A DNA stretch of 64,000 nucleotides from Actinocatenispora sera (lineage in GTDB: Bacteria; Actinomycetota; Actinomycetes; Mycobacteriales; Micromonosporaceae), in NCBI RefSeq assembly GCF_018324685.1, contig NZ_AP023354.1:682001-746000 (forward strand), written 5' to 3'. Below, in pieces: positions 27,988 through 63,931 of the stretch (position 1 is the first letter of the stretch; every line of letters begins with the position of its first letter). A program made the position numbers and the translations under genes. The notes under the pieces are model-generated. The model was not told where the DNA came from, ran no database searches, and saw nothing but the letters and a program-made list of their open reading frames with translations.

Positions 27988-28140
27988 CCTGAAAGCGTAA
28001 CGGCCCGCCCACACTCCTCGAACCCCGCGCCACCCCCACCGGGTCGATCACGGCGCGGTACGCGGAGAAAGCGCTTACCAGTCGACACCGCACCATGATC
28101 AACCGGGGGTGGTGGGGGCGGCAGCCGGTAAGGTCTGGCT

Positions 28141-28779
28141 GTGGAGAGGGCGACCGAGACCGCGCAGACGCTCGACCGCGGGCTGCGCCTGCTCGCCCTC
28201 GTCGCCGAGCACCCCGGGGGTGTCTCGATCAGCGCCGCCGCGCAACACCTGTCCGTCGGCCGTACCGTCGTCTACCGGCTGGCCGCCACGCTCGCCGCCC
28301 ACGGGCTGCTGCACCACGACCCCGGCGGGCCGCTGCGGCTCGGCATCGGCGTACTGGCGCTCGCCCGGCGGGCCCAGCCGCTGCTCGCCGAGGCGGCGTC
28401 ACCGATCCTGCGGGCCCTCGCCGAGGACCTCGGTGCCACCGCGCACCTGACCGTCGAGGACGGCGGCGAGGCGCTCGCCCTGCTGGTCGTCGAGCCCTCC
28501 TGGACCGCGCTGCACGTCGCGTACCGGACCGGCTCCCGGCACCCGCTGTCCGCTGCCGCCGGTGGCCAGGCCATCCTCGCCGGGCGCCGCGGTGAGCGCG
28601 GCTGGACCAGTTCGGCCGGCGGATTCCAGTCCGGTGCCTACGGCGTCGCGGCCCCGGTCCTCGGCATCGACGGCCTCGAGGCCAGCGTCGGCGTCGTCGC
28701 CCTCGGCACCCTCGACGACACCACCACCGGTCCGCGCGTCCTCGCCGCCGCCACCGCTCTGTCCACCTCTATCCGCTGA
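28141..28779 (+). CDS. IclR-family transcriptional regulator
   Basis: A 212-residue regulator with an N-terminal winged helix (TLDRGLRLLALVAEHPGGVS, ISAAAQHLSVGRTVVYRLAA) and the IclR effector domain (HLTVEDGGEALALLVVEPSW, HPLSAAAGGQAILAG). GTG 28141 sits six bases after TAAGGT (28129-28134), a leaderless start. The last residues TSIR and the stop are written in sequence that duplicates the end of the repeat element beginning at 28788, so the native C-terminus may have been replaced. Target unknown; it is divergent from cysS. Confidence 0.9.
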   Translation: MERATETAQTLDRGLRLLALVAEHPGGVSISAAAQHLSVGRTVVYRLAATLAAHGLLHHDPGGPLRLGIGVLALARRAQPLLAEAASPILRALAEDLGATAHLTVEDGGEALALLVVEPSWTALHVAYRTGSRHPLSAAAGGQAILAGRRGERGWTSSAGGFQSGAYGVAAPVLGIDGLEASVGVVALGTLDDTTTGPRVLAAATALSTSIR

Positions 28780-28813
28780 GCTGAACCCCACCTCTATACG
28801 CTGAGGTGAACCC
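28763..28813 (+). repeat. Tandem copy of the repeat-element terminus at the 3' end of the IclR gene
   Basis: CCACCTCTATCCGCTGAGCT at 28763 and CCACCTCTATACGCTGAGGT at 28788 start two 26-base copies (two differences) in direct tandem. The first contains the IclR stop codon, the second is the end of element A. Confidence 0.8.
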
Positions 28814-29523
28814 GAAGCGCCGCCCGTCCGGCTCGCGTGCGCGCGATGTAAAGCCCGCCCCTGTTCGCGCCGGCGTGCGCTTCTGCTGGTGGTGTAAAGC
28901 CCACCTCTGTTTCCTCTTTCCACCCCTCGTGGGGGAACCGTGGGAGCGGGCTTCGCCCCTCCCCACACCCCTCCCCATCAAGGGGGCAGCCGCCCCCTTG
29001 ACAATCCCCCGTCGGGGAAGCAGTGATCGGGCAGGACGCCGCCTGGCCGTTTCGGAAGATCGGAGTGTCGGCACGGCCTACCCATCGACGCCGAGCCCGC
29101 CACGCCAAACCAAACCCCCACCCCGCCTGCGGGCCGCCAGGACACGAAGCGACGCGATGCGTTGCGAGGCGGGCGTTGGCGTGATGGACATGCCGGGCCG
29201 GTTCCCTGTTCTTCTTCGACGGGCACTGGGCGTCGAGGGGCATCGTCACCGGGCCTGGCAAGGGGATGGCCAAGGGGAATCCCCTTGGCGGGGAAGGAGC
29301 GCGAGGAGGGGGCGAAGCCCTCTCCTCGCATTCCCCCACGCGGGGTAAAGCGGCGAACAGAGGTGGCCTTTACACCCGCACGCCGAGCGCGCAGCGGCGA
29401 ACACGGGGCTCACTCCGCACGCCGAGCGCGCAGCACCGGACGGGGGTGGGCTTTACACCGCCAGCGCCGAGCGCACGCCAGCCGCGCAGTGGCGCTTCGG
29501 GTTGACCTCAGCGCATAGAGGTC
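28788..29523. repeat. 736-bp palindromic intergenic element, copy A
   Basis: It is bounded by terminal inverted repeats (CTGAGGTGAACCCGAAGCGCC-like at left; complement CTGAGGTCAACCCGAAGCGCC at right). Subterminal GTGTAAAGCCCACC-type motifs repeat two or three times per arm, then come GTGGGGGAA, GGGCTTCGCCCC and CAAGGGG hairpin blocks. A central ~200-base unique core includes CACGAAGCGACGCGATGCG. Copy B at 38308 is the same length and inverted. Frames across it are open on several strands but are repeat-driven, and no transposase is seen, so it is taken as non-coding. It fills the gap between the convergent IclR and fumC genes, and the fumC stop touches its right end. Confidence 0.85.
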
Positions 29524-30913
29524 ACGGATGCGTCATGGAGAGGACGTCGAGGATCTCGTCGAGCTGCGACTCGGTGAGTTTGCCCGAGGAGACGTGACCC
29601 CGCTCGATGACGACCTCGCGGATCGTCTTGCGCTCCTTCAGCGCCTGCTTGGCGATGGCCGCGCCCTCCTCGTACCCGAGGTACCGGTTGAGCGGCGTCA
29701 CGATCGACGGGGAGGACTCGGCGAACTCGGTGCAGCGTTCCACGTTCGCGGTGATGCCGGCGACGCAGCGGTCGGCGAGCAGCCGGGACACGTTCGCGAT
29801 CAGCCGGACGGACTCCAGCACGTTGACCGCGATGACCGGCAGCATCACGTTGAGCTCGAAGTCGCCGAGGGTGCCGCCGAACGCGACGGTCGCGTCGTTG
29901 CCGATGACCTGCGCGACGACCTGGCGTACCGCCTCGGGCAGCACCGGGTTCACCTTGCCCGGCATGATCGACGAGCCGGGCTGCAGGTCGGGCAGCGCGA
30001 TCTCGCCCAAGCCGGTACGCGGACCGGAGCCCATCCACCGCAGGTCGTTGACGATCTTGTACAGCCCGGCTGCGATGGTGCGCAGCTGGCCGGACGTCTC
30101 GACCAGCCCGTCCCGCGCGCCCTGCGCCTCGAAGTGGTCCCGCGCCTCGGTGAGCGGCAGGTTGGTCGCCGCGGCGACCTCCTCGATCACCTTCGCGGAG
30201 AAGCCGGCCGGCGTGTTGATCCCGGTACCCACGGCGGTACCGCCGAGGGGCAGTTCGGCCAGCCGCGGCAGCGAGGCCTGCAGCCGCTCCACCCCGTACC
30301 GGACCTGCGCCGCGTACCCGGCGAACTCCTGGCCGAGGGTGACCGGGGTGGCGTCCATCAGGTGGGTACGGCCGGACTTGACCACGGTGGCGAACTCGGC
30401 GGACTTCGCCGACAGCGCGTCGGCCAGGTGGGTCAGCGCCGGTACCAGGTCGTTGATGACCGCGGCGGTGGCGGCGACGTGGATGGAGGACGGGAACACG
30501 TCGTTGGACGACTGCGACGCGTTGACGTGGTCGTTCGGGTGGACCGGCTTGCCGAGGCGCTCGGTGGCGAGGGTGGCGAGCACCTCGTTGGTGTTCATGT
30601 TCGAGGAGGTACCGGAGCCGGTCTGGAACACGTCGATCGGGAACTGGTCGTCCCAGGCACCGTCGATGACCTCGACGGCGGCGGACCGGATCGCCTCGGC
30701 GACGTCCGTGTCGATCACGCCCAGCTCGGCGTTGACCTTGGCGGCCGCCGCCTTGATCTGGGCCAGCGCGGCGATGTGCGCGTGCTCCAGGGTGCGGCCG
30801 GAGATCGGGAAGTTCTCCACCGCGCGCTGGGTCTGCGCCCGCCACTTGGCCTTGGCCGGTACCCGGACCTCGCCCATCGTGTCGTGCTCGATCCGGAACT
30901 CTTCCTCGCTCAT
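29522..30913 (-). CDS. fumC: Class II fumarate hydratase
   Basis: Interconverts fumarate and malate in the TCA cycle; cytoplasmic homotetramer, 463 residues. The superfamily signature [11 protein letters not shown] is present, with [14 protein letters not shown] and [16 protein letters not shown] forming the active site. ATG 30913 is preferred over GTG 30919 because GGAG lies five bases upstream. Its TGA coincides with the right end of repeat element A. A GAGCGAAGCGAGCG tract lies just before the start. Confidence 0.96.
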
Positions 30914-30977
30914 CGCCACTCCGCTCGCTTCGCTCGCCGTGCTGTTCGGCTCGGTTACTGGTGTCGTCGCCCGACGC

Positions 30978-31439
30978 TCACTGCTCGTCCGGGTCGGTCA
31001 GGGGCTGGGGCCGGTTCTCCCACTTGGTGGACAGCGCGATCGTCGAGTGGGTACGGGCCACCCCGGGCACCCGGTTGAGCCGGCCGATCAGCGTCTCGAG
31101 CTGCCCGATCGTGCCGACCCGCACCTTGCACAGGAACGATTCCTGGCCGGCCAGGTAGTAGCAGGACTCCACCTCGGGCAGCTTGGCCAGCTCGGCGGCG
31201 ATGTCGTCCGCCTCGCTGCTGTCGGTCTGCACGATGCCGACGAGCGCGGTGACGCCGAGGCCGATGGTCTCCGGTTCGACGAGGGTGCGGTAGCCGAGGA
31301 TCACCCCGGTGGCCTCCAGCTTGGACACCCGGTCGTGCACCGCGGGTGGCGAGAGGCCTATCTGTCGACCGAGTTCCGCATACGACAGGCGGGCGTTGGT
31401 GCGCAGCAGGTCGAGGATCTGCCGGTCGGTCGAGTCCAC
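30978..31439 (-). CDS. Lrp/AsnC-family transcriptional regulator
   Basis: A 153-residue regulator: helix-turn-helix ([39 protein letters not shown]) followed by the RAM ligand domain ([20 protein letters not shown]). GTG 31439 stands six bases after TAAACT (31446-31451 on the complement), a leaderless start. It lies 65 bases upstream of fumC on the same strand and could be cotranscribed with it. Effector unknown, probably an amino acid. Confidence 0.93.
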
Positions 31440-31785
31440 CGCGACAGTTTAGGTCGGCGTCCTGGTCCGTTCTGTCGGGGCCGGGAGAGGCGGAACTTGC
31501 CGGGAAAGGGGTCGGCACTCGCCGCCGGTGACTGCGCTCAGTACACGCGAGCGGGCTCGATCGGCAGCGTTCGGCGGATCGGTGCGGTAACCCGATAGCG
31601 GATACCGACTGTTAAAAATCCCAACATCCGCCCTTGTGCACAGCTCCGAGTGACAATATTCCTACAGGCGGTTGAAGAAGTGTGCGTCGCCACAACACCC
31701 CATCGGGTGGCGTTCCGACCATTTCCGGGACGGCGGGGGACGTCGATGCTGTAATGGATTCAGGGAGTATGTACAAAGGGGGGTC
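31440..31785. other. Intergenic region upstream of bldC
   Basis: No gene is supported. The stretch is locally AT-richer (around 31600-31690, with TTAAAAATC and ACAATATTCC) and ends in AAAGGGGGG before the bldC GTG. It probably holds a long bldC 5' leader and promoter; none can be assigned exactly. Confidence 0.45.
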
Positions 31786-31998
31786 GTGGAGAGTTCCGAT
31801 CGGCTGCTCACACCGGGTGAGGTGGCCTCGTTGTTCCGAGTAGACCCGAAGACAGTGACCCGTTGGGCCGCAGCCGGGCGGATCGGCAGCATCCGTACGC
31901 CGGGCGGGCACCGCAGGTTCCGGGAGTCGGAGGTTCGCGCGCTGCTCAGCGGCGACGAAGCAGGGTTCGCAGAGGAGAGTCAGGCAACGTCGCACTGA
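31786..31998 (+). CDS. bldC: BldC-type developmental regulator
   Basis: A 70-residue MerR-like winged helix without an effector domain. The core LLTPGEVASLFRVDPKTVTR and GSIRTPGGHRRFRESEVRAL is nearly that of Streptomyces BldC, which controls the onset of development by cooperative binding to direct repeats. GTG 31786 follows AAAGGGGGG, and 70 residues matches the family size. Its presence supports a filamentous, differentiating actinomycete. Confidence 0.95.
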   Translation: MESSDRLLTPGEVASLFRVDPKTVTRWAAAGRIGSIRTPGGHRRFRESEVRALLSGDEAGFAEESQATSH

Positions 31999-32057
31999 CG
32001 CGGCCAAACCACAGAGACAGCGGTCCGGCGGCGCCGGCCAGACGCGGCACCGGGGTT

Positions 32058-32735
32058 CTACTCCGGGTCTGGCCGACTCGCCGGATCGTTGGTGTCCGCG
32101 GCCAGCCGGGCCTCGCCCAGCCGGCCGGACCAGCGCAGGTAGAGCGTGTGCGGGACGGCCAGCGCGTCCAGCACCCGGCCGGCCACGAAGTCGACCAGCT
32201 GCTGCACGTCGCGCGCGCCCGCGTAGAACGCCGGGCTCGCCGGCAGCACGGTCGCGCCCGCGTCGTGCAGCGCCAGCAGCTGTACCAGGTGGCTGCGTGG
32301 CACCGGCGTCTCCCGCGGTACCACGACCACCGGCCGATGTTCCTTCAGGTTGACGTCCGCCGCCCGCTGCAACAGGTCCTTCGACAGTCCGAGCGCGATG
32401 CCGGCGCAGGCGGCCGTGCTCGCCGGCACCACCACCATGCCACGGGCCGGGTACGAACCGGAGCTGGGTCCGGCGGCCAGGTCACCGGCCGGCCAGTACC
32501 GCAGGTCGGCACCGGCAGCAAGGTCACGGCCGAGGAAGCCGGCCAGGTCCTCGCGCCAGTGCCCGTCCCGGATCGGCCGGCCGGTCTCGTCCAGCACGGT
32601 CAGCCGGGCCGCCCGCGAGACGATCAGGTCGACCGGCGCCCCGGCGTCGAGCAGCGCGCCGACGACAGCCCGCGCGTACGGGGTGCCGGACGCGCCCGAC
32701 ATCCCGACGATCCACGGTCGACGCTGTTCCGCCAT
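32058..32735 (-). CDS. UbiX-family flavin prenyltransferase
   Basis: A 225-residue enzyme that attaches a dimethylallyl group to FMN to make prenylated FMN, the cofactor of UbiD decarboxylases. The N-terminal MSGASGTPYARAV, SRAARLTVLDE and PASTAACAGIALGLSKDLLQR are family motifs; RPVVVVPRETPV is the phosphate-binding stretch. It supports the UbiD enzyme at 34853 (MqnM/MqnL roles in the futalosine menaquinone pathway). ATG 32735 lies seven bases after CAGAGT (32743-32748 on the complement), so it probably has its own leaderless transcript. Confidence 0.93.
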   Translation of the reverse strand: MAEQRRPWIVGMSGASGTPYARAVVGALLDAGAPVDLIVSRAARLTVLDETGRPIRDGHWREDLAGFLGRDLAAGADLRYWPAGDLAAGPSSGSYPARGMVVVPASTAACAGIALGLSKDLLQRAADVNLKEHRPVVVVPRETPVPRSHLVQLLALHDAGATVLPASPAFYAGARDVQQLVDFVAGRVLDALAVPHTLYLRWSGRLGEARLAADTNDPASRPDPE

Positions 32736-32812
32736 GCACCCCACTCTGCCGCACCACCCGCCACACCGGGCCGGCCGCCCGGGCCGGGTGTGCCCGGCGT
32801 GACCCGCGCGCC

Positions 32813-33277
32813 TCAGCTCAGCGCGACCGGTACCCGGTGGTCGGGCGCACCGTCCTTGGCGAGCATCCAGTACCCGTCGGCGACCGCGCGGTAGAGCACC
32901 AGGCCGGCGGCCTCGCCGACGTCGGCGGTGGTCCAGGCCCGGCCGCCGTGGTCGAGCGAGCGGCGGCTGAACACGGCGAGCGCGTGGGCCAGCTCGGTAG
33001 CGGGCACCCGGGCGGCGGTCGCGGCGAGGTAGACGCCCTGCCCGGTGCCGATCGGCGCGGCCGAGTCGAACACGACCCCGCCGACGTCCGGCCTTGTCTC
33101 GATGTTGCGGGAGTGCGCCGCGGCCGGCGACGACACCCAGTAGAACGTGCGGTACCGGTCGTGCGCGAAATACACCGGGGTACTCCACGGCCGGCCGGTG
33201 CGGTCCGCGGTCGCGAGCACCAGGTAGCGCTGCGCGTCCACGATGTGCCGCGCCGTCCGAACCGGATCGTCACCCAT
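32813..33277 (-). CDS. Pyridoxamine 5'-phosphate oxidase-family protein
   Basis: A 154-residue split-barrel flavin/F420-type protein (YLVLATADRTGRPWSTPVYF, TFYWVSSPAAAHSRNIETRP). The family includes many F420- or FMN-dependent reductases and the substrate is unknown. ATG 33277 is chosen for the preceding AGGTGG and the conserved N-terminus; the frame is open to 33343. It sits between the small gene at 33395 and UbiX, inside a group otherwise devoted to menaquinone. Confidence 0.88.
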   Translation of the reverse strand: MGDDPVRTARHIVDAQRYLVLATADRTGRPWSTPVYFAHDRYRTFYWVSSPAAAHSRNIETRPDVGGVVFDSAAPIGTGQGVYLAATAARVPATELAHALAVFSRRSLDHGGRAWTTADVGEAAGLVLYRAVADGYWMLAKDGAPDHRVPVALS

Positions 33278-33344
33278 CCCGACCACCTGCCTCCCCACTG
33301 TCGATGATTGTCGGACGGCGAACTCGTCGCGGGGGCCGGACACG

Positions 33345-33381
33345 CCGCGGGCCGGTGCGCGACCTGCGCACCGGCCCGCGG
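33345..33381 (-). terminator. Perfect 16-bp terminator hairpin
   Basis: 33345-33360 pairs exactly with 33366-33381 around GACCT, 14 bases after the stop of the 61-residue gene on the minus strand. Confidence 0.8.
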
Positions 33382-33394
33382 TGGTAGGACCCGA

Positions 33395-33580
33395 TCAGGG
33401 CCCGATGAGGTACTCGTCGGTGTCGGTCCAGCCGTCCACCGGGCCGTCCCCGGTGACGCCGTCGACGACGACCTTGTCACCGGCTGCGTCGACGGTGCGT
33501 TCTTCGGTGTCGGCGCTGGGCCGACGTGGTGCCGGGGGCTTCGTTGCCGCATCCAGCTCTCGCCATTTCGATCTGGTCAC
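33395..33580 (-). CDS. Small hypothetical protein (61 aa)
   Basis: Not recognised. It starts at GTG 33580 with one of the strongest ribosome sites in the window (GGGGGAGGAGG, about seven bases away) and ends just before a perfect terminator, so expression is well supported. The product is hydrophilic: a basic N-terminus (MTRSKWRELDAATKPPAPRR) and an acidic C-terminus (DGWTDTDEYLIGP). No membrane segment or Cys. It lies downstream of the UbiA gene in the same direction. Confidence 0.6.
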   Translation of the reverse strand: MTRSKWRELDAATKPPAPRRPSADTEERTVDAAGDKVVVDGVTGDGPVDGWTDTDEYLIGP

Positions 33581-33848
33581 GCGCTACCTCCTCCCCCATC
33601 GCCGAGCGGCGGGGTCGGTCCGACACTCGGACAGAACCGGGGGCAGACATCCAGGATCGCGGAATGTGAATCTACCGTCCACCCTCCGTACAGTCGCAGC
33701 CGGTTGCCGCGGTTGTCACCTGGACCACATCCACCCTGTTCGATACCCACGACGGCGGGCTCCACTCAAGCCGGTGCCGGAGTCGCGCCGGTTGTCGCGG
33801 GATTTCCGATCGGTACGGATCGCCTGACGTACCGGTTGCGGCGACCGG

Positions 33849-34853
33849 TCAGGCGCCCAGGCCCTGCAGGAACACCAGGTCGGCGAGGGCGAAGGCGAAC
33901 AGCACGATGCTGACCACACCGTTCGCGGTGAAGAACGCCCGGGTCATCCGGGACAGGTCGGACGGCCGCACGATGGCGTGCTCGTACACCAGGATCAGGG
34001 CCGTGATGCCGAGCCCGACCCACCAGATCGGGCCGTATCCGGCAGCCAGGGCGAAGGCTACGAACAGCCCGAGGGTGACCACGTGCACCACCGCGGAGGC
34101 GCGCAACGCGTTCGCGACACCGAACCGGACCGGCACGCTGCGGACACCGATCCTGGCGTCCACGTCGACGTCCTGGCAGGCGTACATGCAGTCGAAGCCG
34201 CCGATCCAGGCGCCCACCGCGAGGCCGAGCAGCAGCGCGGTCCAGGACCAGTGGCCGGTGACACCCAGCCAGGCGCCGATCGGGCCGATCGCCTGCGCGA
34301 GGCCCAGGAACACCTGCGGGAAGTCGGTGAACCGCTTCGCGTACGAGTAGATGATCAGGAAGAACAGCGCGATCGGCGACAGCGCCAGGCACAGCCAGTT
34401 GAGCAGCCCGGCGCTGACGAAGAACACCAGCAGCGAGATGCCGAGCCCGAGGTACGCCTTGCGCAGCGACAGCGCGCCGGTGACCAGCTCGCGGTGCGCG
34501 GTACGGGGGTTCTGCGCGTCGATGTGCCGGTCGATGATGCGGTTCGCCGCCATCGCGACGGTACGGCCGGCGACCATCGCCACGGTGATCTCGACCAGCG
34601 TGAGCCACTGCACGTGCCCGCCGTGGATGCGCATCGCCGACAGCGCGGCGACGTAGGCGAACGGGAGCGCGAAGATCGAGTGCTCGATCATCACCAGCCG
34701 CAGGAACGCGCGGGCGCCGTGCCCGGGGCGTACCACCGAGTCGCTGACCGCGTCCGCGGTGCCGCTGCCGCCGGCCGTCGGGGTGGGCGAGCCGTCGGTG
34801 GCCGGGGTCGGTGCCCCGCCGGTGGCCGGGGTGGGCGAGCCGTCGGTGGACAT
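33849..34853 (-). CDS. mqnP: UbiA-family prenyltransferase, probable MqnP
   Basis: A membrane prenyltransferase of 334 residues with about eight helices. It probably prenylates 1,4-dihydroxy-6-naphthoate in the futalosine route to menaquinone. The two Asp-rich motifs are NRIIDRHIDAQNPRTA and DCMYACQDVDVD. ATG 34853 overlaps the UbiD stop (TGATG). The first ~30 residues are a tandem Gly-Ser-Pro-Thr repeat (GSPTPATGG/APTPATD) absent from most relatives. UbiD-UbiA-UbiX grouping matches Streptomyces SCO4490-SCO4492. Confidence 0.9.
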   Translation of the reverse strand: MSTDGSPTPATGGAPTPATDGSPTPTAGGSGTADAVSDSVVRPGHGARAFLRLVMIEHSIFALPFAYVAALSAMRIHGGHVQWLTLVEITVAMVAGRTVAMAANRIIDRHIDAQNPRTAHRELVTGALSLRKAYLGLGISLLVFFVSAGLLNWLCLALSPIALFFLIIYSYAKRFTDFPQVFLGLAQAIGPIGAWLGVTGHWSWTALLLGLAVGAWIGGFDCMYACQDVDVDARIGVRSVPVRFGVANALRASAVVHVVTLGLFVAFALAAGYGPIWWVGLGITALILVYEHAIVRPSDLSRMTRAFFTANGVVSIVLFAFALADLVFLQGLGA

Positions 34854-36322
34854 CAGCGGCCCGTCCCCAGGCCGTACTCGGCCCAGCGTTTGTCCACAGT
34901 GGACACGATCTCCGGTGACATGGTCATCATCTCCGGCCACTCGCGGGTGTACCCCTCGGTCGGCAGCTTGCGGGTCGCGTCGACGCCGAGCTTGCCGCCG
35001 AAGAACTGGTGGTACGAGGAGTGGTCGAGATGGTCGACCGGTCCCTCGGAGACCACGATGTCGTGCAGGTAGTCGACGTTGCCGAAGGCACGGAACGACA
35101 CCTCGCGCAGGTCGTGCACGTCGCAGTCGGCGTCCACCACGATGACCAGTTTGGTCAGCGACAGCAGGTGTGCACCCCAGACCGCGTGCATCACCTTCTG
35201 CGCCTGCTTGGGGAACCGCTTGTCGATCGACACGACCAGGCAGTTGTGGAACACCCCGGGCTCGGGCATGTTCATGTCCACGATGTCCGGGATGAGGATC
35301 TTGATCAGCGGCAGGAAGATCCGCTCGGTCGCCTTGCCCAGGCCGAAGTCCTCCTGCGGCGGCTTCGAGGTCACGATCGACTGGTACACCGGGTTCTTCG
35401 CCGTGGTCATGCACTCGACGTGCAGCACCGGGAACGGCTCGACCGGCGTGTAGAAGCCGGTGTGGTCGCCGAACGGCCCCTCCGGCGCCCGCTCCCCCGG
35501 CTCGATCCAGCCCTCCAGCACCACCTGGGCGTTCGCCGGTACCTGCAGCGGCACGGTCCTGCAGTCGACCATCTCGACGCGCTCGCCGCGCAGGAACCCG
35601 GCGAACAGGTACTCGTCGATCTCGGCCGGCAGCGGCGCCGACGCGGCGTACGACACGGCCGGGTCGCAGCCGAACGCGATCGCCACCGGCAACCGCTGAC
35701 CGAGCCGCTCCGCGACCGCGTGGTGCGCGGTCGAGTCCTTGTGGATCTGCCAGTGCATGCCGAGCGTGTTGCGGGAGTGCTGCTGCAACCGGTACAGGCC
35801 GAGGTTGCGCTTGCCGGTTTCGGGATGCTTGGTGTGGGTCAGTCCGAAGTTGTGGTAGATCCCCCCGTCGCCGGGCCACACCTGCAGGCCGGGCAGCCGG
35901 TCCAGGTCGACCTCGTCGCCGGTGTACACCACCTGCTGACACGGCGCACTCTTCACGTGCTTCGGCGGCACCGACTTCAGCTGGCCGAGCTTGCCCAGCG
36001 CGCCCCAGATGCCGCCGAGCCCGGTCGGCAGCTCCAGCTTGACCAGCTCGGCGATCCGGTCACCGATCTCGTCGACGTCGCGTACCCCCAGCGCCAGCGA
36101 GGTGCGGCGGCGGGTGCCGAACAGGTTCATCAGCACCGGCATGTCGCCCCGGGTCGGCCGCTCGAACAGCAGCGCCGGCCCGCCGGCCCGGACCACCCGC
36201 TGGGTGATCTCGCTGATCTCCAGCGTCGGATCGACCGGTACCGACACCCGCTTCAGCTCGCCGGCCTTCTCCAGCCGGCGCAGGAAATCGGGCAGATCCG
36301 CGTACGGGTAGCCGTGTGCCAT
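34853..36322 (-). CDS. UbiD-family decarboxylase, probable menaquinone biosynthesis MqnL
   Basis: A 489-residue prenylated-FMN-dependent decarboxylase. It begins with YADLPDFLRRLEKAGELKRV, carries the family metal/cofactor region GIYHNFGLTHTKHPETGKRN and the E-R-A-P-E-G-PFGDHTGFY active-site strand, and ends with the usual DKRWAEYGLG. Context with UbiA (overlapping stop/start) and UbiX supports a role in decarboxylating the futalosine-pathway naphthoate. ATG 36322 is fixed by the conserved N-terminus. Confidence 0.93.
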   Translation of the reverse strand: MAHGYPYADLPDFLRRLEKAGELKRVSVPVDPTLEISEITQRVVRAGGPALLFERPTRGDMPVLMNLFGTRRRTSLALGVRDVDEIGDRIAELVKLELPTGLGGIWGALGKLGQLKSVPPKHVKSAPCQQVVYTGDEVDLDRLPGLQVWPGDGGIYHNFGLTHTKHPETGKRNLGLYRLQQHSRNTLGMHWQIHKDSTAHHAVAERLGQRLPVAIAFGCDPAVSYAASAPLPAEIDEYLFAGFLRGERVEMVDCRTVPLQVPANAQVVLEGWIEPGERAPEGPFGDHTGFYTPVEPFPVLHVECMTTAKNPVYQSIVTSKPPQEDFGLGKATERIFLPLIKILIPDIVDMNMPEPGVFHNCLVVSIDKRFPKQAQKVMHAVWGAHLLSLTKLVIVVDADCDVHDLREVSFRAFGNVDYLHDIVVSEGPVDHLDHSSYHQFFGGKLGVDATRKLPTEGYTREWPEMMTMSPEIVSTVDKRWAEYGLGTGR

Positions 36323-36521
36323 GCCGACAGTCTGTCAAGCGCTTCCCGGCGCGCCGCCGCGACCTGACCAGATCGTGACCGCTGCCCCGCGGGCCCGCCC
36401 GTGCGGTACCGCTCGAAGCGTCCGCCCGGTTTTCCCGGTCTGGCACACTCACGACGTCCACAGAGGTCAGGGCCGTGAGGTGCGCCCGGCCGAGCCACCA
36501 CCCCGAGGTACGAGGCCGTTG

Positions 36522-37283
36522 ATGCTCGACGAACCACAGTCCCCTTCCGCGTCGCAGCCGAGCGGCGCCGCCGCACCGGCGGTGGACGCTGCCACCCGGG
36601 CCGAGGCGGAGGAGATCCGGCTGACCCGGGTGGAGGTGGAGTTCGCCGCGGCCGAGCGGCTCACGTTCTTCTCCGACGCGGTGATCGCGATCGCCATCAC
36701 CCTGCTCGCGCTGGAGCTTCCGGTGCCGCAGCGTGGCACCAGCGCCGAGGTGCTGAGCTGGATGTACGACCGCAAGATGGAGTACATCGCGTTCTTCATC
36801 AGCTTCGCGGTGATCGGCGCGCACTGGATGAGCCACCACGCGGTGTTCCGGTGGGTGCGCCAGCTCGGCGGGCGGGTACTGCGGTACAACATGCTCTGGC
36901 TCATGATCACCGTGCTGCTGCCGTACCTGACGAAGCTGCTCACCCAGAGCGAGGACGACGGCGCGTTCCTCGTCCGGTTCGGGCTGTACGCGCTGGCGCA
37001 GGCGGTGTCCGGTCTGCTGTTCGCGCTGATGGTGCGGGACATGTGGAAGTACGGGCTGTTCCGTCCCGGCGTTCCCACGAAGGCGATCGACGGTGCCCAG
37101 ATGCGGTCGCTGATGATGGCCGGGGTGTTCGCGATCTCCATCCCGATCGCGCTGCTCGGCCAGTGGTCGTTCCTGGTCTGGCTCGCGATACCGGTGCCGA
37201 TGCGACTGCTCGGCGACCGGCTGCGGCGCTGGCTCGGGACACACCGGCCGTCGTCACCGACACCGGAGACCACCGTTATGTAG
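36522..37283 (+). CDS. TMEM175-family (DUF1211) potassium-channel-like protein
   Basis: A 253-residue membrane protein with six helices. Helix 1 carries the family signature RLTFFSDAVIAIAITLLALE, the selectivity-filter region of bacterial TMEM175 channels, and HWMSHHAVFRWV follows. Prokaryotic members form tetrameric K+-permeable channels. An acidic ~45-residue cytoplasmic N-terminus precedes it. ATG 36522 is chosen because it precedes the conserved region with GAGG nearby; upstream frame to 36321 lacks a better start. Confidence 0.9.
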   Translation: MLDEPQSPSASQPSGAAAPAVDAATRAEAEEIRLTRVEVEFAAAERLTFFSDAVIAIAITLLALELPVPQRGTSAEVLSWMYDRKMEYIAFFISFAVIGAHWMSHHAVFRWVRQLGGRVLRYNMLWLMITVLLPYLTKLLTQSEDDGAFLVRFGLYALAQAVSGLLFALMVRDMWKYGLFRPGVPTKAIDGAQMRSLMMAGVFAISIPIALLGQWSFLVWLAIPVPMRLLGDRLRRWLGTHRPSSPTPETTVM

Positions 37284-37287
37284 TCAC

Positions 37288-38301
37288 GTGAATCCTCGGC
37301 GTTGCCGGAACGGTACCGGCATCCCCTCGCGCCTACCCGCCCGTTGGTCGGCACTGCTGCTGGTGCTCGGCGTGCCCGCGGTGGCGCCGCTACCGGCGAC
37401 CGCCGGCACCCCCCGGCCGGTCGCGGCCGTCGCCGCGGGCGACGAGCTGCCGGCCTGCCCACCAGGCGGACCCACCGCACCGCGCCGCCCGCCCACCGCA
37501 CCGCCCGGCGCCGGGGCCTGCCGCGCCGCCCCGACCCGCGTCGTCCCCGCCCGGCCGGTACCAGCGACGCGCGTCGCACCGGCCGGCACCGGTCCGTCGG
37601 GCGGGCGACGGGCACCGGCCGGCGGCGCTCCGTCGGGCGGGGGCGTCGGGCTCGCCGCGCGGCCGGGTGAAGATGCCGACGGGTACCGGCACCTCGGCGC
37701 GTACAGCGAGAACGACTACGCCGCCGTCGGCGCCACCCTGCAGGTCCGCGACACCGGGGTACGGCGGCGCAGCAACGACTTCGTCGCCGCCCGGGTGATG
37801 GCGCGCGCCGACGCGGCCGGCCGCACCCGGTGGCTCGAGGCGGGCTGGACCGAGGACGGCTGGCTCGACGACAACGCCCAGCACGTCTACACCTACGACA
37901 GCACCGGCGGCGACTGGGCCTACTACGACCAGTACCCGGTGCACGACGGCGACCGGATCTCGGTCGTCGTCGAGTCCGGGCCCGCCGCGAGCGGCGGCAC
38001 CACCTGGCGCGCCTACCTGTGGTGGGACAACCGCTGGAACCTGCTCGCCGCGCCGACCCTGCCGTTCGGGCCGCGGGCACAACTGGAGCAGTACGTCGAG
38101 GTGTACGTGGATCCGCGACGCGGCGGGCGGTACCCGGTGCCCGCGGTGGCCGTCACCGGCAGCATCGTGGCGGCCGATCCCCGCGGGGACGCCGTACCCT
38201 GGCGCGACCCCGCCATACCGACCGACACGTCCCCCGCCTACTCCGGGTACTGCGTCTCCTGGCGGGAGCGGTACGACTCCTGGGCGGCGGGGACCTGCTG
38301 A
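37288..38301 (+). CDS. Secreted protein of unknown function
   Basis: A 337-residue protein with a signal peptide (basic RRCRNGTGIPSRLPARW, hydrophobic ALLLVLGVPAVAPL, cleavage near ATAG) and a ~90-residue Pro/Ala linker. The C-terminal ~210-residue globular domain is rich in Trp/Tyr (AGWTEDGWLDDNAQHVYTYD, WRAYLWWDNRWNLL). The aromatic content suggests a lectin-like sandwich, but no family is recognised. GTG 37288 follows four bases after the previous stop; TATGTA (37277-37282) may make it leaderless. Repeat element B begins seven bases after its stop. Confidence 0.75.
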   Translation: MNPRRCRNGTGIPSRLPARWSALLLVLGVPAVAPLPATAGTPRPVAAVAAGDELPACPPGGPTAPRRPPTAPPGAGACRAAPTRVVPARPVPATRVAPAGTGPSGGRRAPAGGAPSGGGVGLAARPGEDADGYRHLGAYSENDYAAVGATLQVRDTGVRRRSNDFVAARVMARADAAGRTRWLEAGWTEDGWLDDNAQHVYTYDSTGGDWAYYDQYPVHDGDRISVVVESGPAASGGTTWRAYLWWDNRWNLLAAPTLPFGPRAQLEQYVEVYVDPRRGGRYPVPAVAVTGSIVAADPRGDAVPWRDPAIPTDTSPAYSGYCVSWRERYDSWAAGTC

Positions 38302-38307
38302 GTGGGG

Positions 38308-39043
38308 GACCTCTTTGCGCTGAGGTCAACCCGAAGCGCCGGTGCGCGGCTGGCGTGCGCTCGGCGCTGGCGGTGTAAAGCCCACCCTTGTCCGGCGCCG
38401 GTTGCAGCCGGCGGTGTGTACGCGTCTCTGGCCGGGGCCGTTGGGTGCTGGTGGTGTAAAGGCCACCTCTGTTCGCCGCTTTACCCCGCGTGGGGGAATG
38501 CGAGGAGAGGGCTTCGCCCCTCCTCGCGCTCCTTCCCCGCCAAGGGGATTCCCCTTGGCCATCCCCTTACCCATCCCGGTGACGATGCCCCTCGACGCCG
38601 AGCGTGCGTCGAAGAAGACCGGGGAACCGGCCGGGCCTTCCCATCACGGCAACGCCCGCCTCGCAACGCATCGCGTCGCGTCGCTTCGTGTCCTGGCGGC
38701 CCACAGGCGGGTGGGGTTGGCTTGGCGTGGCGGGCTTGGCGTTAATGGGTAGGCCGTACCGACATCCCGTAGTTCCGAAGCGGGCCAGGCGGGGTAAGGA
38801 TCTCGTCTCTGGTTTTCCGGTGGTGGATTGTCAAGGGGCGACTGCCCCCTTGACGGGGAGGGGTGTGGGGAGGGGCGAAGCCCGCTCCCCACGGTTCCCC
38901 CACGGGGGGTGAAAAGGGGAAACAGAGGTGGGCTTTACACCGCCAGCACCAGCGCGCCAGCGCCGACAGGGGGTGGGCTTTACATCGCGCGCACGCGAGC
39001 CGGGCACCGGCGCTACGGGTGTACCTCAGCGCATAGAGGTGCC
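38308..39043. repeat. 736-bp palindromic intergenic element, copy B (inverted relative to A)
   Basis: The left end GACCTCTTTGCGCTGAGGTC corresponds to the right end of copy A read on the other strand; its right end (complement GCACCTCTATGCGCTGAGGT) corresponds to the left end of A. Internal order matches A inverted: GTGTAAAGCCCACC motifs, GTGGGGGAATGCGAGGAG, CAAGGGGATTCCCCTTGG, the unique core and the mirror arm. The last codons and stop of murB lie inside its right end. It is again between convergent genes and judged non-coding. Confidence 0.85.
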
Positions 39044-40111
39044 CAGGGAGGTGTTGACGAGGACGGGTTCGGGGTGGAGGGAGACACCGAAGGTCTTGTG
39101 GACGCCGGCGGCGATCTCCCGGGCCAGGTCGAGCAGCTCGGCGGTGGTGCCGTGGTCGGCGTTGGTGAGGGCGAGCGTGTGCTTGGTGGAGATCCGTACC
39201 GGGCCGGGGCCGTACCCCTTGGTGAAGCCGGCGCGCTCGATCAGCCAGGCGGCGGGGACCTTGACCCGGTCGCCGGACTCGGGCCAGGACGGTACGGGCA
39301 CGTCGGCACCGAGCAGGTCGGCGCACCGGGCGGACAGCGCGGCGAACTCGTCGGCGGACAGGATCGGGTTGGTGAAGAACGAGCCGGCGCTGCGGGTGTC
39401 CGGGTCGGCCGGGTCGAGCACCATGCCCTTGCTCCGGCGCAGCTCCAGCACCGCGTCCCGGACGAGCGGCAGCGGTACCCGGTCGCCGACCTCGACGCCG
39501 AGGGCGCGGGCCAGCTGCTCGTACCGGATCGGTTCGGACTCGCCGCCCTCGTGCAGCACGAAGGCGACCGACAGCACCACCCACCGGTCGTTGCCCTTGA
39601 ACAGGCTGGTCCGGTAGCCGAACGCGCAGTCGTCGGCGCGCATCGCGGCGGTGCGCTGCTCGACCCGGTCGTACACGGTGACCTCGACGATGGTGTGCGA
39701 GACCTCCTGGCCGTACGCGCCGACGTTCTGGATGGGCGTTGCGCCGGCCGCGCCGGGAATGCCGGACAGGCACTCGATCCCGGACCATCCCTGGGCGACG
39801 GTGGCCTCGACCACCGCATCCCAGTCCATCCCGGCCGGTACGGTCACCGCGACCCGGCCGTCGCCGCCGCGGCCGAAACCGAGGCCGTCGCCGCCGGTGC
39901 GCAGCAGGACCACGGTCCCGGGGAACCCTTCGTCCGCGATGACCACGTTCGACCCGCCGCCGAGCAGCAACAGCGGCTCGCCGGTGGCGTCCCCGGCGCG
40001 TACCGCCGCGACGATCTCGTCGGAATTGGTGACCTCGACCACACGTTGCGCAGGGCCACCGAGGCCGAGCGTCGTGTAGCGACCCAGAAACTCTTGACTG
40101 ACGTCCTGCAC
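39026..40111 (-). CDS. murB: UDP-N-acetylenolpyruvoylglucosamine reductase MurB
   Basis: Reduces enolpyruvyl-UDP-GlcNAc to UDP-MurNAc in peptidoglycan synthesis; cytoplasmic FAD enzyme, 361 residues. Motifs include TLGLGGPAQRVVEV, LLLGGGSNVVIADEG, GIPGAAGATPIQNVGAYGQE and SAGSFFTNPI with the catalytic Ser. After HPEPVLV the usual short family ending is replaced by NTSLGTSMR-stop, whose TSMR codons are the end of repeat element B. GTG 40111 lies six bases after TAGGCT (40118-40123 on the complement), a leaderless start. Confidence 0.95.
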   Translation of the reverse strand: MQDVSQEFLGRYTTLGLGGPAQRVVEVTNSDEIVAAVRAGDATGEPLLLLGGGSNVVIADEGFPGTVVLLRTGGDGLGFGRGGDGRVAVTVPAGMDWDAVVEATVAQGWSGIECLSGIPGAAGATPIQNVGAYGQEVSHTIVEVTVYDRVEQRTAAMRADDCAFGYRTSLFKGNDRWVVLSVAFVLHEGGESEPIRYEQLARALGVEVGDRVPLPLVRDAVLELRRSKGMVLDPADPDTRSAGSFFTNPILSADEFAALSARCADLLGADVPVPSWPESGDRVKVPAAWLIERAGFTKGYGPGPVRISTKHTLALTNADHGTTAELLDLAREIAAGVHKTFGVSLHPEPVLVNTSLGTSMR

Positions 40112-61729: not shown

Positions 61730-63931
61730 TCACTGCGGTGGCAGCAGCACCAGCCAGCCGAGCACGAACGCGACCGGCGCGACGAGCGCCGCCGCCACCG
61801 CCGGCCCCAGGACGAACCGGGCCGGCCACAGGTGCGGCGGTTCCCCGGACAGCTCCCGGCCGGAGCTGCCGAAGCTGACCCCGACGTCGGCGAGTACCGC
61901 GGCCAGCCCCATCAGCAGCCCGGCGACGGCGGCGTGCAAACCGGGCAGGCCGGCGAGCTGGCCGGCGACGAAACCGACCACCGTGCCGGCCACCACCCCG
62001 CCGGCGACCACCCCGATCACCCCGCGGGCCACCGGCGCGCTGGCCCGCGGCGCGTGCCAGGCCAGGTCGACCAGCCGGGCGAGCGCCACCGCGGCACCGG
62101 CGGCGCCCAGCAGCGGGACCACCGCGGACGGCCCTTTGTCGAGCCGCGCCAGCATCACCACCGCCGGCACCGCGACCGTGCACGTGACCGCGAACATGGT
62201 CGACGCCAGCGAGTCGGTGATCCGGTTCCGGCCGGCGCCGCGGGCCAGCTGGCCGGCGGCCGCGGCGAGCAGCCCGCCGGCCAGCACGTATCCGAACGGC
62301 GCGAGCGAGACCGCCGCGCCGTACTGCGCGAACCAGTCGGCGACGAAGCCGGCGCCGAGCGCGACCACCGCCACCACCGCCGGGCCCGGCCGGCGGGTGC
62401 CGAACACCCAGGTCGACACCAGGACGACCTGGATCAGGGCACACGCCGCGAGACCGACCGGCGAACCCACCCGGCCGGCCGCGATCAGCGCCCCGAACAG
62501 CACGACCGCCAGCACGGCGTTGATCGCCGCGGCCGCCCGGTCCGGCGGTACCGGCTCCAGCGACACCGGCGCGGCGGCGTCGGCACCCGCCGGTCCGGTC
62601 GCGGGCGGCGCCGCCGGCCAGCCGTCCGCCGGCGCCTGCGCGTCGTACCGGCCGGCTGGCTCCGGCTGCCCGCGGTACGGGTCGCCCGCCCCGCGGTACG
62701 GATCGTCGACCGGAGCCCCGCCGGCCGCCCGCCCGCCGTACGTGTCGTCGGCCGGGTCCTCGGCTGCCGGTGGGCGGCCGTACGGATCGGCAACCTGGTA
62801 GGGGTCGGGCCGCGGGTCGTGACGGTCGGGCCGCGGGTCGTGACGCTCGCCGGGCGCGTCGTACCGGTCGGCCGAGTACGGCCCGGCCCCGTACTGGTCG
62901 GCGGACTGTGGCCCGGCGCCGTACGACTCCGACGAGCCCGGCTCGTGCGGCCCTGCGTCGTACCGGCCGGCGGACTGTGGCCCGGCGCCGTACGGCTCCG
63001 GCGAGCCCGGCTCGTAGGGCGCGGCGTCGTACCGGTCGCGCGGCGCCTGGTACCTGTCCGGCTCGGCGCTCCACCGGTCCGGGCTGTCGGCGTAGCGGTC
63101 CGGTCCGGCGGTGTAGCCGTCCGGCGTACCCGCATACCTGTCGGGCCGGCCGGCACCGTGATCCGCACCGTCGGGGTACCGGTCCGGACTGCCGGCGAAG
63201 CGGGATGTCGCGGCACCGGCTGGATCCGGCTCGTCGCGGTAGCGGGGCTGAGCCGCGGTGCCCGGATCGGGCTCCTCGCGGTAACGAGGCTGGGACGCGG
63301 TGCCTGGGCCGGGCTCGTCGCGGTAGCGGGGTTGGGACGCGGTAGCCGGGCCGTCGCCGGTCGACGGTGGGGCGAACCAGTCGTCGTCGGCCGTCGGCCA
63401 GTCCTCCCGGCCGGACGCTGGCGACTCAGGGTTACCGTCACGACCCACAGAGTTAGCGTACTGGCCGGCGCGGCCGGCGCCGGGCGGTTCGGGGGCGTAC
63501 CGGTCGGGCGCCCGCAGGTCGGCGAACGGGTCCGGCTCCGCACCGCGCGGCGGGTTCGGCCGGTCCGGCGGGGCGGCGCCGAAGTACGGCACGTCCGCCC
63601 CCGATGCGCCGCCCAGAAAACGCCCGGCACCGGGCTCGTCCGGCCCGGGTGCGCCGCCCGGGAAACGGCCAGCGCCGGGCTCGTCCGGCCCGGGTGCGCC
63701 GCCCGGGAACCGGCCGGCGCGAGGCTCGGCTGGGCCGGGCGCGGCGCCGAACCAGTCGACCGTCGAGGTCCCGTCCGGCATCGACGGTGATGGATCCGCC
63801 GGCCGGTACCGCGGATCGTCCTCGACGACCCCGTCGGGCGCGGGATCGGCGGGCGAGCCGAACCAGTCCGGGTCGTACTGGTATCGACCGGTTCCGTCGC
63901 CGGCTGGGCGGGGTGGCGGGTTCGCGGACAC
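61730..63931 (-). CDS. Membrane protein with long repetitive Asp/Pro/Tyr-rich N-terminal domain
   Basis: A 733-residue protein. Residues ~1-455 are disordered and repetitive: AGRFPGGAPGPDEPG-type units three times (~75-110), RYRDEPDPGTAxQP units (~195-240), PDRYxxxPDRY units (~255-320) and YGAGPQSAxxYDAGP units. Residues ~465-733 hold about eight helices (INAVLAVVLFGALIAAG, GVIGVVAGGVVAGTVVGFVA and others). No family recognised. The soluble part would be cytoplasmic if the first helix is in-out. GTG 63931 is the likely start; the frame is open a little further. Confidence 0.75.
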   Translation of the reverse strand: MSANPPPRPAGDGTGRYQYDPDWFGSPADPAPDGVVEDDPRYRPADPSPSMPDGTSTVDWFGAAPGPAEPRAGRFPGGAPGPDEPGAGRFPGGAPGPDEPGAGRFLGGASGADVPYFGAAPPDRPNPPRGAEPDPFADLRAPDRYAPEPPGAGRAGQYANSVGRDGNPESPASGREDWPTADDDWFAPPSTGDGPATASQPRYRDEPGPGTASQPRYREEPDPGTAAQPRYRDEPDPAGAATSRFAGSPDRYPDGADHGAGRPDRYAGTPDGYTAGPDRYADSPDRWSAEPDRYQAPRDRYDAAPYEPGSPEPYGAGPQSAGRYDAGPHEPGSSESYGAGPQSADQYGAGPYSADRYDAPGERHDPRPDRHDPRPDPYQVADPYGRPPAAEDPADDTYGGRAAGGAPVDDPYRGAGDPYRGQPEPAGRYDAQAPADGWPAAPPATGPAGADAAAPVSLEPVPPDRAAAAINAVLAVVLFGALIAAGRVGSPVGLAACALIQVVLVSTWVFGTRRPGPAVVAVVALGAGFVADWFAQYGAAVSLAPFGYVLAGGLLAAAAGQLARGAGRNRITDSLASTMFAVTCTVAVPAVVMLARLDKGPSAVVPLLGAAGAAVALARLVDLAWHAPRASAPVARGVIGVVAGGVVAGTVVGFVAGQLAGLPGLHAAVAGLLMGLAAVLADVGVSFGSSGRELSGEPPHLWPARFVLGPAVAAALVAPVAFVLGWLVLLPPQ

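Follow-up and report, generated by a model that had tools for sequence, protein, structure and literature searches.

Among the described systems closest to the element reported here are the enterobacterial RU-1 and RU-2 repeats, which are likewise MITE-like and intergenic and are fused to gene 3′ ends. In the part of the published account drawn on here, an amidase gene has apparently lost its normal stop to RU-1, and an overlap of 16 nt with RU-2 gives an ABC transporter protein four C-terminal residues (Delihas 2007, PMC2759123). At 127–168 bp these repeats are shorter than the 600–860 bp found here, and the same part of that account describes neither a recurrent terminal stop in one frame nor homogenisation at orthologous sites (PMC2759123). 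In Coxiella, QMITE1 and QMITE2 are MITEs that overlap gene 3′ ends; QMITE2 extends enhC in one strain, and in another strain an indel leaves the stop just before the element, a history of the same kind as that of murB below (PMC5896051). The QMITEs are nevertheless a separately described family, and the extension there amounts to 33 amino acids, with a stop immediately downstream of the insertion (PMC5896051). Rickettsia palindromic elements form an in-frame part of host proteins (reviewed in PMC10969869); they are ∼150 bp long, lie within ORFs and encode a conserved peptide, whereas only the tip of the element here is translated, at the C-terminus. Finally, REP/BIME sequences resemble the present element in being palindromes outside genes; they have been proposed to help end transcription and to stabilise mRNA (PMC3733652), and evolution by gene conversion had been raised in a 1988 review (cited in PMC2267715). 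Their palindromic units measure 20–40 bp, a size that fits the 20-bp palindromic terminus of the element here but not its repeating unit of about 0.6–0.86 kb across the family.

Here we report that in Actinocatenispora sera the four final codons and the stop codon of murB lie in a palindromic terminus, 20 bp long, of a non-coding, hairpin-forming element of 0.73 kb, copy B (Table 1). In the window, by which we mean the whole 64,000-nt stretch of DNA analysed, the minus strand of positions 39026–39043 reads GGC ACC TCT ATG CGC TGA (G T S M R stop) and is the 3′ end of murB. The original prediction, that these codons come from the element, is borne out by the fall of TSMR-TGA within the right terminus of copy B. 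In MurB the Pfam domain MurB_C is present in full, its last residue being 352 of 361, and what the element contributes is therefore a tail behind the domain. As C-terminal capture is already known from RU-1/RU-2 and QMITE2, the murB case does not establish a new principle. What sets it apart from those cases is the recurrence of capture in one frame and the homogenisation of copies at conserved sites. With eight genes, three related species and several pairs of states before and after fusion, frame preference and tolerance become measurable, where earlier cases were scattered; that copies at conserved sites cluster by genome is a clear example from nature of how a dispersed, non-coding repeat of bacteria can evolve in concert, and it opens to test the long-standing proposal that palindromic repeats evolve by gene conversion. 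Overall, we consider it probable that this is a genus-specific, non-autonomous palindromic repeat located near stop codons, with secondary gene fusions, a role as a hairpin and homogenisation by conversion.

Table 1. Features at copies A and B of the element, in positions of the window.
Feature	Position	Strand	Evidence or remark
IclR-family regulator (iclR-like), ends TSIR-TGA inside terminus	28141..28779	+	Pfam
Outer second terminus copy, CACCTCTATCCGCTGAGCTG, supplying TSIR-TGA to iclR-like gene	28764..28783	+	
Copy A, between convergent iclR-like gene and fumC	28789..29523	.	
Copy A proper left end	28789..28808		
Copy A right terminus, GACCTCTATGCGCTGAGGTC, outer 2 nt overlapping fumC stop	29504..29523	-	
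fumC, native C-terminus SMTHP-stop as in G003	29522..30919	-	
Convergent ORF, native TGA 6 nt ahead of copy B left terminus	37288..38301	+	Pfam search, no match
Copy B left terminus, GACCTCTTTGCGCTGAGGTC	38308..38327	+	
Copy B, non-coding near-palindrome between 3′ ends of ORF 37288-38301 and murB	38308..39041	.	
Copy B right terminus, CACCTCTATGCGCTGAGGTA, contains murB stop	39022..39041	-	
murB last four codons and stop (TSMR-TGA), within terminus	39026..39040	-	sequence, orthologue comparison
murB	39026..40111	-	convergent with ORF 37288-38301 across copy B

The genome under study, that of a soil bacterium, is a single contig of 7.04 Mb (G000). It was compared with three further genomes of the genus Actinocatenispora, namely the draft assembly of A. 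comari NUM-2625 (G001), G002, and G003, which is also a single contig. The 733-bp element is present in A. sera in ∼15 full-length or near-full-length copies and ∼10 fragments. A search with the terminus pattern returned 24 matches in this genome, against none with the reversed control, and paired matches all lie ∼0.6–0.8 kb apart. Not only are the 20-bp termini inverted with respect to each other, the entire element is an inverted repeat and folds end to end as one long hairpin. Folded as RNA, copy B reaches −513.5 kcal/mol compared with a mean of −371.6 for dinucleotide shuffles (z = −19.5); copy A, folded as DNA, gives z = −13.8. Across an alignment of 22 sequences the central stems are almost invariant, with two-sided changes in 8 of 126 consensus pairs. 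Copies A and B are inverted in orientation relative to each other, and the same 20-mer, with few changes, stands at the left terminus of copy B and at both ends of copy A. GC3-based prediction called no gene in 28790–29523 or 38308–39040.

The family is present in A. comari and G003, absent from G002 and, among 61 related genomes searched, restricted to Actinocatenispora. Among the 57 genomes outside the genus, only four isolated matches of 40–51 bp turned up, in members of other families within the order, and at E 1e-5 to 1e-3 we attribute them to chance. In a collection of named genomes the exact core motif was found only in A. comari, the element had no match in phage and plasmid collections, and Rfam gave nothing at gathering score in window positions 28000–40000. 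No description of repeats in Actinocatenispora was found among the titles listed in a literature search. Within one arm of an A. comari element (L068:2443–2620) the terminus recurs in tandem (at 2443, 2509, 2553 and 2597) as a unit of 44–66 bp.

According to the gene calls, ∼10 of the 19 A. sera sites inspected lie between convergent genes, seven between tandem genes and none between divergent genes, two being unclassified. Divergent junctions make up 12 of the 50 gene junctions in the window, so that their absence among the 17 classifiable sites has, by number, a chance probability of ∼0.01; the location of the elements at gene 3′ ends, also part of the original prediction, is upheld. Most neighbouring genes retain their native stops, which lie 1–14 nt, frequently 8–11 nt, ahead of the terminus. 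To judge by position and fold, the element may serve the genes that adjoin it as a hairpin in their 3′ untranslated regions or as a bidirectional terminator.

The iclR-like gene had been noted to end in a copy of the terminus, and it does; this copy is, however, an outer, additional one, which lies 25 bp beyond copy A's proper left end and is not the end of the element itself. At the other side, the fumC stop had been placed against the element, and the stop codon (29522–29524) indeed overlaps the final 2 nt of copy A, but the C-terminus is native and not supplied by the element; all that has been lost is the spacer between gene and element.

Orthologues reveal the order of events at several sites. 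In A. comari, murB ends ...LVNTSMH-stop, followed by an 8-nt spacer, GCGGGGGG, and then by the terminus, CACCTCTTTGCGCTGAGGTG; relative to this arrangement, A. sera is shorter by a net 12 nt in the stretch from AACACCTCC to CACCTCT, with the native TGA gone and the frame kept. The murB gene of G003 ends ...LVNAAL-stop next to an element whose end is degraded, and that of G002 ends ...LVGVEF-stop with no element, the convergent stops being 10 bp apart. The terminal residues of unfused murB and iclR orthologues differ from the element-derived ones, and the finding that would have told against the original prediction, an element-free orthologue sharing the fused ending, did not turn up; murB ends natively in A. 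comari, G003 and G002. At the iclR-like gene the terminus ends the versions of both A. sera (TSIR) and A. comari (TSMR); an ancestral LATRLH-stop and a 9-nt spacer are still discernible in G003, and the site in G002 is without the element. At three sites, those of murB, the iclR-like gene (as seen in G003) and the site-l gene, the native stop of a sister species is thus followed by the element, which makes these three fusions secondary. The element at treY is present in A. sera alone, A. comari and G003 having native ends there and G002 lacking the whole family, and may therefore be a direct insertion; on the sequences compared, treY looks like the only case that fits direct, recent insertion into the last codons of a gene. 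As separate observations, the iclR-like ORF of G003 (L085) has a 1-nt loss upstream and a terminus with CGA, so that its frame continues for ∼90 codons into the element, and at site k, in the position that the element takes in A. sera and A. comari, G003 (L118:10192–10994) carries a gene of zinc-ribbon-like appearance.

A T/A-S-x-R-TGA ending within the terminus closes eight different genes across the genomes of A. sera (murB, the iclR-like gene, the site-l gene and treY), A. comari (the iclR-like gene, the site-h gene, an ATP-grasp gene, an AAA-type gene at site n and the site-p gene) and G003 (the ATP-grasp and AAA-type genes). The product of treY, which has a Pfam alpha-amylase domain, we take to be maltooligosyl trehalose synthase. 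By appearance the site-l gene encodes a large secreted-type protein and the site-h gene a membrane protein; neither these two nor the site-p gene has a Pfam match. Further TS-x-R endings in L017, L078, L065, L013 and L074 were excluded as their frames are not coding-like, and L099 likewise. The genome-level search for endings of the TS(M/I)R type that the original prediction proposed has returned a recurrent pattern, always in the TGA frame. With many elements lying at gene ends, such endings might arise by chance, one frame in three reaching the TGA. We hold this to be very improbable indeed: all eight fusions use that frame, for which (1/3)^8 = 1.5e-4 is expected, no coding-like frame was seen to end deeper in a TGA-bearing element, and orthologues show that native stops were truly lost. 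The frames differ in what they add, as reading into the element in the TGA frame adds four residues in 88% of termini, compared with medians of 22 and 60 residues for the remaining two.

The stop codon is also part of a stem. The T of TGA pairs with a nearby downstream base (GCGCT with AGCGC), and at 59 readable termini the pair is T-A in 47, C-G in 10 and mismatched in two; 57 of 59 are thus Watson-Crick, a value attained in none of 10,000 shuffles. The outermost base of the terminus covaries too, 64 of 68 pairs being Watson-Crick. Homogenisation carries linked alleles from copy to copy, so that the termini counted are not independent observations, but C-G pairs at the stop base are seen in all three genomes. 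Since its T is base-paired and covaries, we read the stop as a by-product of a conserved stem on which selection appears to act. The alternative, the strategy suggested when the element was first noticed, is that the element lands at the 3′ ends of genes with an in-frame stop of its own, an adaptation making insertion harmless. TGA is indeed present in 52 of 68 termini (19/24 in A. sera, 29/34 in A. comari and 4/10 in G003), and both the exclusive use of its frame and the direct fusion of treY, at a site empty in the other three genomes, would suit such an adaptation. Against it, six of the 10 G003 termini have C in place of the T, versions with CGA and hence no stop are common and most frequent in G003, the stop base changes together with its partner, most neighbours keep their native stops ahead of the terminus, and at murB, the iclR-like gene and the site-l gene the sister species has the element behind a native stop. 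An evolved insertion strategy is accordingly not what these data favour, and we regard it as improbable; the borrowed stop appears to be a side effect of the hairpin that is tolerated.

The repeat occupies sites within a few nucleotides of the stops of convergent or tandem genes, where its hairpin may serve the adjoining genes as a 3′ hairpin or bidirectional terminator. At murB, orthologue comparison shows that the net loss of 12 nt led the reading frame into the terminus; the protein gained a short tail and now stops at the TGA of the element, and other genes were fused in similar fashion, by minor deletions or shifts of frame. Survival would be limited to fusions that use the TGA frame, given four added residues as opposed to a median of 22 or 60. 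The copies would meanwhile be homogenised by recombinational gene conversion, possibly triggered by cleavage of the long palindromes.

Most insertions predate the fusions, since for 14 of the 15 full copies in A. sera an element lies at the same place in A. comari or G003, with matching orientation wherever both were compared; some G003 sites hold relics only. The copies nevertheless group by genome rather than by site in a tree, which points to concerted evolution: all 15 A. sera copies fall into one group (95/97), orthologous pairs are no nearer to each other than non-orthologous ones, and constrained orthologue pairing was rejected for all six groupings tried (AU p 7e-4 to 3e-47). Identity between copies is 80% for A. 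sera and A. comari, 73% for A. sera and G003, and about 87–88% within a genome, where some of the internal similarity of A. comari may be an assembly artefact because the draft has chimeric joins at the element (C1 and C124), although the A. sera and G003 genomes, as single contigs, are free of this concern. Elements change faster than the genes that adjoin them, as fourfold-site divergence between A. sera and A. comari is only 7% in murB and 14% in iclR. Two observations stand beside this pattern. Contigs C124 (L063) and C1 (L064) of A. comari share the right flank of site f and have different left flanks, apparently through wrong joins at the element. The G003 copy at site n (L084) groups with the A. 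comari copies and away from the other G003 copies, so that homogenisation is incomplete or DNA has been exchanged.

Clustering by genome could also result if each species' own family had independently re-inserted at the same gene ends, and the distance from stop to element does vary between species at some sites. We give little credence to this, as orientation relative to flanking genes agrees at the compared A. sera–A. comari pairs, spacers appear homologous at several junctions, and ∼14 parallel events in the same orientation are less simple than one shared insertion per site. Starting from homogenisation by conversion, a more speculative idea, which we rate as rather doubtful, is that the repeat homogenises itself, hairpin cleavage and repair from another copy keeping the copies alike at fixed sites. 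A single base change from TGA to CGA could then spread to the majority of copies and give proteins of no relation to each other new C-termini; the iclR-like ORF of G003, which now continues into the element, would be an example.

As to mobility, the element shares with MITEs its inverted termini and its lack of predicted genes, but no target-site duplication was found at the junctions examined, including the apparently recent one at treY; old ones could have decayed. No related autonomous element was found in A. sera, given the uniform spacing of its paired terminus matches, and no mobilising enzyme was found. A Y1 (RAYT-type) transposase was considered as mobiliser and rejected: A. sera and A. 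comari have one Y1_Tnp each, G003 and G002 have none, and no terminus adjoins the Y1_Tnp gene. That G003 bears the element without a Y1-type transposase is a further difference from REPs. Elsewhere in the window, runs of a 42–45 bp tandem repeat lie in a minus-strand reading frame at 63220–63349 and 63588–63722.
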